Made by a program: the position numbers and the translations under genes. From Microbacterium sp. Bi121 (lineage in GTDB: Bacteria > Actinomycetota > Actinomycetes > Actinomycetales > Microbacteriaceae), in NCBI RefSeq assembly GCF_918698005.1, contig NZ_CAKKLJ010000005.1, positions 62,001 through 126,000 of the forward strand: a DNA stretch of 64,000 nt, read 5' to 3'. The notes beneath the pieces are model-generated. The model was given only the letters and a program-made list of their open reading frames with translations. It did not search any database and was not told the origin of the DNA. Of the stretch, positions 27,839-30,056 are shown in pieces. Each line of letters begins with the position of its first letter. The first letter of the stretch is position 1.

Positions 27839-27866
27839 CTGACGCGAAGGGCGCCGCCGGTAGAAT
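27839..27866 (+). promoter_or_regulatory. Promoter of the MBL-Rieske gene
   Basis: CTGACG (27839-27844) and TAGAAT (27861-27866) with a 16-base spacer form the best -35/-10 pair noted in the window. Transcription would start near 27873, giving a leader of about 20 nt with AGGAGGAG at 27882-27889. Confidence 0.6.
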
Positions 27867-27893
27867 CGAGCGGTCCACCTCAGGAGGAGTGCA

Positions 27894-29468
27894 ATGCGGA
27901 TCACCGGACTCGGCCACGCCGGGATGTTCATCGAGACCGTCGGCGGAAACATCATCTGCGACCCGGTCCTCGGACCCTCGTTCTTCGGCTCCTGGTTCCC
28001 GTTCCCCGACAACCGCGGCCTCGACTGGGAGAAGTTCGGACGGGATGCCGACTTCCTCTACATCTCGCACCGCCACCGCGACCACTTCGACCCGAAGCTG
28101 CTCGAGCGCTACATCCGGAAGGACATCGAAGTGCTCCTCCCGGAGTACCCCATCGACGACCTCGAGCGGGACATCCGGGCGCTCGGCTACACGAACATCA
28201 CGTACGCGCCGGCCGGTCAGGTCATCGAGCGCGGCGACCTGAAGATCATGATCACGCCGCTCCGCGCGCCCAGTGACGGTCCGATCGGCGATTCCTCGCT
28301 GAGCGTCGACGACGGCACGGCATCCGTGCTCAACCAGAACGATTCGCATCCGCTGGACCTCGAGAAGCTGCTGAGCTTCGGCACACCTGATGCGTATTTC
28401 ACGCAGGTCTCCGGAGCGATCTGGTGGCCGATGGTCTACGACCTCCCGATGGACGCCAAGCAGAACTTCGCGAAGCTCAAGCGCGACGCCCAGAACAAGC
28501 GCGCGATGTACTACATCGAGAAGGTCGACGCACCGCACGTGTTCCCGATGGCAGGGCCTCCCATGTTCCTGCGCGACGACCTGTTCGACTTCAACGGACT
28601 CGGGCGAAACGGCGAGTCGATCTTCACGGATCAGAAGCAGTTCCTCGCGCACATGAAGGAGCTCGCACCGCAGTACGACGGCCGGCTCTTCGTTCCTGGC
28701 ACGGTCGTCACGCTCGAGAACCGCGAACTCGTCGCTGTCGAGCAGACGCTGTACACGCCGTCGGAGCTCGAGCACATCTTCGACGAGAAGTGGGACTACC
28801 TCGAGGAGCAGCGCGCGAGCCGTCAGCAGGAGATCCGGGACGAAGAGGCGGAGCGGGCACCCGTGCTGTCGTCGGAGGAGATCCTCGCCGAGCTCAAGGC
28901 GTGGTGGGAACCGCTGATGAAGAAGTCCCGCACCATCCGGCTCGGCGTCGGCGGCTGCGTCCGATTCCACATCGGCGACCTCGACATGGTCGTCGACTTC
29001 CCGCGTGCCAAGGTCCGCGAGTACGCAGGGGAGGACTGCATCTACTGGTACACGATCCCCGCCGATCTCGTCTCGACGAACATCCGTGATCGCGAGATCG
29101 ACTGGTCGAACTCCATCTTCCTGTCGATGCAGTTCTCGGTCGGTCGCAGCGGCAAGTTCAACGAGTTCCTGACGACGTTCCTCAAGTGCCTGTCCGTCGA
29201 CCGGATCGAGTACGTCGAGAACTGGTACTCCGAGCAGACCGATCAGACCGAAGACGCCGAGGTCGGCGACTGGGTCGTCCAGCGCCGCTGCCCGCACCTG
29301 CGGGCCGACCTGACCAAGACGGGCAAGGTCGACGAAGATGGCATCCTCACGTGCAGCATGCACGACTGGAAGTGGGATCTGAAGACCGGCAAGTGCCTCA
29401 CCACCACCGGCCACGAGATCCGCGCGGAGCGCTGCGCCGTCACGGAGGACGCACTGAAGCTCGGCTAG
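27894..29468 (+). CDS. Metallo-beta-lactamase-fold protein with C-terminal Rieske [2Fe-2S] domain
   Basis: The 524-residue soluble protein begins with a UlaG-like MBL domain; the metal-binding motif is HRHRDH at residues 59-64. A central region has MYYIEKVDAPHVFPMAGPP and an acidic helix, then a sterol-carrier-like stretch (LGVGGCVRFHIGDLDMVVDF). The C-terminal Rieske domain has both ligand pairs intact: RRCPHL near 466 and CSMHDW near 488. The same two domains occur in CMP-Neu5Ac hydroxylase, but there the Rieske domain is N-terminal. An iron-dependent hydroxylase or oxidoreductase role is possible (inference). It has its own promoter and strong ribosome-binding site, and its stop codon is part of the pyrR -10 box. 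Confidence 0.85.
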   Translation: MRITGLGHAGMFIETVGGNIICDPVLGPSFFGSWFPFPDNRGLDWEKFGRDADFLYISHRHRDHFDPKLLERYIRKDIEVLLPEYPIDDLERDIRALGYTNITYAPAGQVIERGDLKIMITPLRAPSDGPIGDSSLSVDDGTASVLNQNDSHPLDLEKLLSFGTPDAYFTQVSGAIWWPMVYDLPMDAKQNFAKLKRDAQNKRAMYYIEKVDAPHVFPMAGPPMFLRDDLFDFNGLGRNGESIFTDQKQFLAHMKELAPQYDGRLFVPGTVVTLENRELVAVEQTLYTPSELEHIFDEKWDYLEEQRASRQQEIRDEEAERAPVLSSEEILAELKAWWEPLMKKSRTIRLGVGGCVRFHIGDLDMVVDFPRAKVREYAGEDCIYWYTIPADLVSTNIRDREIDWSNSIFLSMQFSVGRSGKFNEFLTTFLKCLSVDRIEYVENWYSEQTDQTEDAEVGDWVVQRRCPHLRADLTKTGKVDEDGILTCSMHDWKWDLKTGKCLTTTGHEIRAERCAVTEDALKLG

Positions 29469-29485: not shown

Positions 29486-29519
29486 CCTTTAACCCCGTCC
29501 AGAGAGGCGGAGAAGGGAG
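29486..29519 (+). promoter_or_regulatory. PyrR-binding RNA hairpin overlapping the pyrR ribosome-binding site
   Basis: The loop TCCAGAGAGG (29498-29507) matches the conserved PyrR-binding loop. It is closed by CCG/CGG (29495-29497 with 29508-29510) and, after an asymmetric bulge, by CCTT/AAGG (29486-29489 with 29513-29516). The lower stem takes in the purine-rich ribosome-binding site AGAAGGGAG (29511-29519), 6 nt before the ATG. UMP-bound PyrR should stabilise the fold and block translation, as proposed for mycobacterial pyr leaders. No terminator hairpin is present, so control should be translational. Confidence 0.85.
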
Positions 29520-29525
29520 CGGCTG

Positions 29526-30056
29526 ATGAGCGCACGCACCGTGCTGCAACAGGCCGATATCTCGCGGGCACTGACCCGCATCGCCCATGAGATCCTCGAA
29601 TCCAACAAGGGTGCGGCAGGTCTCGTGCTGCTGGGTATCCCCACCCGCGGCGTCGCCCTCGCCGAGCGACTGGGCGCACTGATCGCCTCGATCGCCGACA
29701 CCGAGGTTCCGATCGGCTCGCTCGATGTCACGCTCTTCCGCGACGATCTCGCCAAGCATCCGACTCGTTCGCCGCAGCCCACCGAGATCCCCGCCGGCGG
29801 CATCGACGGCAAGACGGTCGTGCTCGTCGACGATGTGCTGTTCTCCGGTCGAAGCATCCGCGCTGCCCTCGACGCGATCCAGTCGATCGGGCGTCCCTCG
29901 ATCGTGCGCCTCGCGATCCTCGTCGACCGCGGACACCGCGAGCTGCCGATCCGCCCCGACTTCGTCGGCAAGAACATCCCGTCAGCGCGCACCGAGCGCG
30001 TCAACGTGCGCCTGAGCGAGAACGACGGCGTGGATGAGGTGACGATCGGCGCATGA
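29526..30056 (+). CDS. pyrR: Bifunctional pyr operon regulator / uracil phosphoribosyltransferase PyrR
   Basis: The 176-residue phosphoribosyltransferase-fold RNA-binding regulator carries the PRPP motif [20 protein letters not shown] and the early [13 protein letters not shown]. It senses UMP and controls the operon through the leader hairpin just upstream. It starts at ATG 29526 and overlaps pyrB in ATGA, so repression of its translation can spread to the coupled genes. Confidence 0.96.

Follow-up and report, generated by a model that had tools for sequence, protein, structure and literature searches.

A Microbacterium gene adjoining the pyr genes very probably encodes NamH, a UDP-N-acetylmuramic acid hydroxylase

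Identification of a probable namH gene

The 524-residue protein encoded by the gene under study, located in a 64 kb stretch of Microbacterium DNA (the window), is very probably a known enzyme and the product of an ordinary gene of Microbacterium rather than an orphan. By analogy with its characterised relative, the gene can be assigned with high confidence as namH, whose product would hydroxylate the N-acetyl methyl group of UDP-N-acetylmuramic acid (UDP-MurNAc) to generate UDP-N-glycolylmuramic acid (UDP-MurNGlyc). The primary report on namH is said to be that of Raymond et al. in 2005. The assignment is based on three lines of evidence: a middle domain that Pfam names after M. tuberculosis Rv3818 (SCP2_Rv3818, PF25451; 154.7 bits versus a cut-off of 28.2), the presence in one chain of the N-terminal UlaG/metallo-β-lactamase (MBL) and C-terminal Rieske domains that characterise the NamH family, and full-length similarity to proteins of namH-bearing mycolata. 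In the available text of four papers (PMC10050696, PMC10234563, PMC6194230, PMC3605390), Rv3818 is identified as namH, which encodes the hydroxylase responsible for N-glycolylmuramic acid, and a description among them gives the domain order of NamH as N-terminal UlaG and C-terminal Rieske. The locus is printed as Rv3808 in the corresponding part of PMC6378297, and the Rv3818 designation of the four other papers was adopted here.

The Nocardia and Rhodococcus relatives display 43–45% identity over 98% of the query, while the Tsukamurella protein is 44% identical over residues 1–513. Nocardia and Rhodococcus are named as namH-bearing genera in the published extracts, and Tsukamurella is not among the genera named there. 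These mycolata sequences come from plasmid-collection records of the three genera, and the connection to Rv3818 is made by way of the Pfam model and of sequences from other mycolata rather than directly through a Mycobacterium sequence. The protein resembles NamH (Rv3818) in family model, domain order and metal motifs, but groups separately from the mycolata proteins in the tree. The first-pass annotation had presented the protein as an MBL-Rieske fusion with no pathway context, a view that gives way to NamH/Rv3818, a relative whose activity has been characterised and is simple.

Domain organisation and metal-binding motifs

Features of the gene and its upstream region are collected in Table 1. 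Besides SCP2_Rv3818, Pfam recognises Lactamase_B_3 (29.5 bits versus a cut-off of 24, residues 2–119) and Rieske (38.2 bits versus a cut-off of 20.3), all three domains thus scoring above their cut-offs. No NCBIfam model came near its own cut-off for the 524-residue protein, no phage relatives were found at an E-value of 0.01, and models of anti-phage defence gave no matches at the same threshold.

Table 1. Positions in the window of the namH-like gene, its encoded domains and motifs, and its upstream signals
Feature	Position	Strand	Basis
namH-like ORF, UDP-N-acetylmuramic acid hydroxylase orthologue (very probable)	27894..29468	+	ATG start, 524 aa; sequence and Pfam
MBL-fold (UlaG/UPF0173/CmlA-like) domain, residues 1-276	27894..28721	+	Pfam, profile relatives, AlphaFold2 model
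HxHxDH metal motif (HRHRDH), residues 59-64	28068..28085	+	H59, H61, D63, H64 in 18/18 and 47/47 alignment rows
SCP2_Rv3818 domain (PF25451), residues 330-447	28881..29234	+	Pfam 154.7 bits; SCP2 fold matches
Rieske [2Fe-2S] domain match, residues 461-504	29274..29405	+	Pfam; Rieske ferredoxin fold over 451-520
CPH cluster ligands C466, H468 (residues 466-468)	29289..29297	+	alignments
CSMH cluster ligands C487, H490 (residues 487-490)	29352..29363	+	alignments
Ribosome binding site AGGAGGAG	27882..27889	+	sequence
Promoter-like site CTGACG, 16 nt, TAGAAT	27839..27866	+	simple sigma-70 rule scan

Conservation was evaluated in a phylum-wide alignment of 18 rows, comprising 17 loci chosen from 50, and in a second alignment of 47 closer proteins. 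The putative ligands H59, H61, D63, H64, C466, H468, C487 and H490 are identical in 18/18 and in 47/47 rows, which argues that the metal motifs are not due to chance, and D128, D133 and D150 are likewise identical in every row of both. Within the MBL part, the only histidines invariant across the phylum-wide alignment are H8, H59, H61 and H64. The fusion of MBL and Rieske domains, the sterol-carrier-like insert preceding the latter and the integrity of both metal sites, all proposed in the initial annotation, are borne out by these data, as is a domain order opposite to that of CMP-sialic acid hydroxylase (CMAH).

CMAH similarly converts an N-acetyl into an N-glycolyl group on a nucleotide sugar and combines Rieske and β-lactamase-like domains. 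In contrast, its substrate is CMP-Neu5Ac and its Rieske domain is N-terminal according to the accessible part of PMC8227644, whereas here the Rieske domain is C-terminal and the layout of an N-terminal Rieske followed by a β-lactamase-like domain was not found. A review (PMC6481270, in the portion available) calls the CMAH gene a distant homologue of NamH. What looks like a reversal of CMAH is the usual arrangement in NamH, since published NamH carries its UlaG/MBL domain at the N-terminus and its Rieske domain at the C-terminus.

Predicted structure

The AlphaFold2 model of the full protein is confident (mean pLDDT of 91.4). In the whole-model structural comparison, residues 1–274 align with the UPF0173 protein TM_1162 (Z-score of 21.0 and rmsd of 2.5 Å over 210 residues) and with CmlA (Z-score of 19.9 and rmsd of 4.3 Å over 240 residues), and RNase J, CPSF-73 and NAPE-PLD appear at similar Z-scores. 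The UlaG/UPF0173 proteins thus share the fold of this region, but the solved chain, with 227 residues, has no room for the SCP2 and Rieske domains. Many hydrolases and nucleases rank level with CmlA and FrsH, and the structural ranking of the predicted model does not by itself favour an oxygenase over a hydrolase. Because the MBL part filled the list of whole-model matches, the C-terminal half was modelled and compared separately (mean pLDDT of 89.5). It matched SCP2 (best Z-score of 9.6, rmsd of 2.6 Å over 98 residues) and Rieske ferredoxins (Z-score of 6.9, rmsd of 2.6 Å over 69 residues), the latter under the tool's safe level of 8. Structure prediction, suggested earlier as a check on the MBL site and the Rieske fold, therefore recovered the MBL fold clearly and the Rieske fold more weakly.

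Proposed mechanism

By analogy with NamH, the enzyme would convert UDP-MurNAc, O2, two electrons and two protons into UDP-MurNGlyc and water, and the Mur pathway would then build UDP-MurNGlyc into N-glycolylated peptidoglycan. The text available from PMC6378297 places the NamH reaction at UDP-MurNAc in the cytoplasm and that from PMC11555704 in the UDP precursor pool, while an interaction study (PMC3605390, in part) suggested the later precursor UDP-MurNAc-pentapeptide as substrate; the use of molecular oxygen by NamH in mycobacteria is stated in a literature extract. The Rieske cluster (C466, H468, C487, H490) would receive electrons from a reductase of the cell and hand them on to a non-heme iron site. 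Activation of O2 would take place at the iron of the MBL domain, probably a diiron centre formed by H59, H61, H64, D63, D150 and either D128 or D133, and the SCP2-like domain would contribute to the structure of the core or to placing the substrate, rather than carry lipid.

In a profile search, the solved proteins closest in sequence to the MBL part were the non-heme diiron oxygenases FrsH (E-value of 6.6e-11) and CmlA (E-value of 1.7e-6), which share an HxHxDH-type motif but have no Rieske domain in the match, and which act on carrier-bound amino acids. The metal site of CmlA consists of three histidines and several carboxylates, and dizinc hydrolases have more than four histidines in the MBL domain. 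A diiron site is favoured by the identity of these best solved relatives together with the restriction of phylum-wide invariant histidines to H8, H59, H61 and H64.

Two haloarchaeal plasmid proteins in which Pfam finds no Rieske domain can be aligned with residues 1–430 of NamH (hhalign probability of 99.9%, from a two-row profile). It is conceivable, albeit somewhat doubtful, that NamH, CMAH and these proteins have in common an oxygenase core of MBL and SCP2-like domains, that a Rieske domain was added to one end of it or the other, and that the core holds a CmlA-type, histidine-poor diiron site, which would make NamH and CMAH Rieske-fed diiron monooxygenases. This proposal rests on the NamH and haloarchaeal sequences, CMAH entering it by description alone, and is weakened by the Pfam SCP2_Rv3818 model, which gave no match to the two haloarchaeal proteins even at an E-value of 1. 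Both proteins (L131 2501–3925 and L132 2501–3844, from Halobaculum and Halolamina plasmids) are annotated as MBL fold metallo-hydrolases and, judging from their sequences, are possibly Rieske-less relatives of NamH. Further haloarchaeal MBL fold metallo-hydrolases of the same kind are H16 and H18–H20.

Distribution, phylogeny and wall type

The nearest named relatives, among the best 80 of those listed, belong to Microbacterium (93% to M. aerolatum). PF25451 was present in 323 of 366 Microbacterium genomes (303 of the 340 good ones) and absent from 43 (37 of the good ones). In the family-level sample 10 of 249 genomes carried it, representing 3 of 85 genera and including three genomes of Microbacterium itself, and in the phylum-level sample 38 of 396 did; the genus, family and phylum samples overlap. 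In a tree of 100 rows, built by a quick method and containing several long branches that leave deep joins unsure, the Microbacterium proteins group with those of Pseudonocardiales and Streptomycetaceae (82 rows, SH-aLRT of 99), while the mycolata form a branch apart (6 rows, SH-aLRT of 100).

A taxonomic paper (PMC10757982, in the part available) reports N-glycolylated mureins in Microbacterium strains and calls the acyl type typical for the genus. The namH gene offers an explanation for this taxonomic trait, the glycolyl-type cell wall, and the minority of genomes without PF25451 constitutes a natural comparison of gene against wall type. In the accessible portion of PMC13041923, the sole role of Microbacterium foliorum is that of a strain in labelling experiments.

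More than one PF25451 match was observed in a few Microbacterium genomes (three in G675 and two each in G472, G561, G662 and G667). In Microbacterium sp. NIBRBAC000506063 (L133 4001–5758, NZ_CP072877.1), namH is annotated as three CDS on a 465 kb record labelled "plasmid"; the match falls in four pieces, and the gene is therefore broken or the sequence contains errors.

Alternative activities

A zinc-dependent MBL hydrolase using its Rieske domain as a redox sensor would accord with the structural search, in which the majority of the 50 matches listed are to MBL hydrolases and nucleases. However, the further histidines that dizinc MBL hydrolases carry in motifs 3 and 5 have no invariant counterpart here (H152, invariant in the 47-row alignment, is an arginine in 13 of the 18 phylum-wide rows), and the closest solved sequences are those of diiron oxygenases, leaving such an activity extremely improbable. 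Scarcely any probability attaches to an orphan oxygenase of hydrophobic compounds such as lipids or sterols; a lipid or hydrophobic substrate had been suggested in the first-pass annotation on account of the sterol-carrier-like insert. The SCP2-like fold is real, as described above, but in the structure search alkylsulfatases, SdsA1 and YjcS among them, resemble this part too; they have an MBL domain as well, and the fold is thus by itself no mark of a lipid hydroxylase. Moreover, the SCP2-like domain defines the Rv3818 family, and the idea finds no support in the activity of its characterised member, NamH, which acts on a UDP-sugar (PMC6378297, available text).

A NamH-family Rieske hydroxylase acting, in the Microbacterium, Streptomycetaceae and Pseudonocardiales branch, on a different N-acetyl substrate, such as another nucleotide sugar or a muropeptide, is unlikely, although the separation of this branch from that of the mycolata would be consistent with it. 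Streptomyces is usually said to have N-acetylated walls. Homologues from Streptomyces and Actinacidiphila (L114, L116–L118, L122–L124, L126) display 52–54% identity and are therefore closer than those of the mycolata, although Streptomyces sp. appears in a published extract as one of the bacteria that lack namH, and another extract records NamH homologues in species without reported MurNGlyc. Homology alone consequently does not fix the substrate, and the NamH family may include other substrates. Around the Streptomyces homologue L116, four of eight ORFs matched Pfam (kinase, FG-GAP, histidine phosphatase and dienelactone hydrolase), and these neighbours suggest, from their sequences, no pathway. 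Against a different substrate in Microbacterium stand the N-glycolylated mureins of the genus and the genome of the window, which holds a single match to the protein and no second one.

Genomic neighbourhood

Downstream of the probable namH, a gene starting at 29526 opens what we take, from the sequences, to be the pyr genes PyrR, PyrB and PyrC, in agreement with the adjoining pyr operon noted initially. This contrasts with the Tsukamurella relative, which is flanked by acyltransferase and HAD-hydrolase genes. Inspection of orthologous neighbourhoods, a check proposed at the outset, showed that 58 of the 80 named loci have PyrR on the downstream side. Among the 22 loci without PyrR, five are named Microbacterium; L103 and L110 are cut by contig ends, and three Microbacterium loci (L075, L078, L087) have SNF2 upstream and no PyrR within 4 kb of flanking sequence. 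In the namH-free genome G032 (L139), a gene recognised from its sequence as an SNF2 helicase is followed immediately by pyrR, the two matches lying 76 bp apart, and in G015 and G026 nusB precedes the pyrR match by 180–230 bases with neither namH nor SNF2 between them. Since these flanks lack it, namH behaves as a single-gene unit that is present or absent at the site. The pyr operon looks like an incidental neighbour, and nothing points to a functional connection between the two. The earlier remark that the gene has no pathway context consequently holds locally, the position beside pyr being common in Microbacterium, but not overall, as the pathway is peptidoglycan precursor synthesis.

The promoter-like site of Table 1, described at first as the strongest visible in the window, is indeed the only one in the 64 kb identified by a simple sigma-70 rule requiring 9/12 matches, although it is modest, and a scan at 10/12 matches found no site in the window. 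In ten Microbacterium loci, the upstream -10-like hexamer is TAGAAT (four), TAGACT (four), TAGGAT (one) or TAAACT (one). A search of Rfam around the gene, including the pyrR leader, gave no match up to an E-value of 0.1. The leader itself, which extends from 29486 to 29525 before pyrR (CTTTAACCCCGTCC...GAGGCGGAGAAGGGAGCGG) and is nearly identical in the namH-free G032, may represent a pyr regulatory leader.
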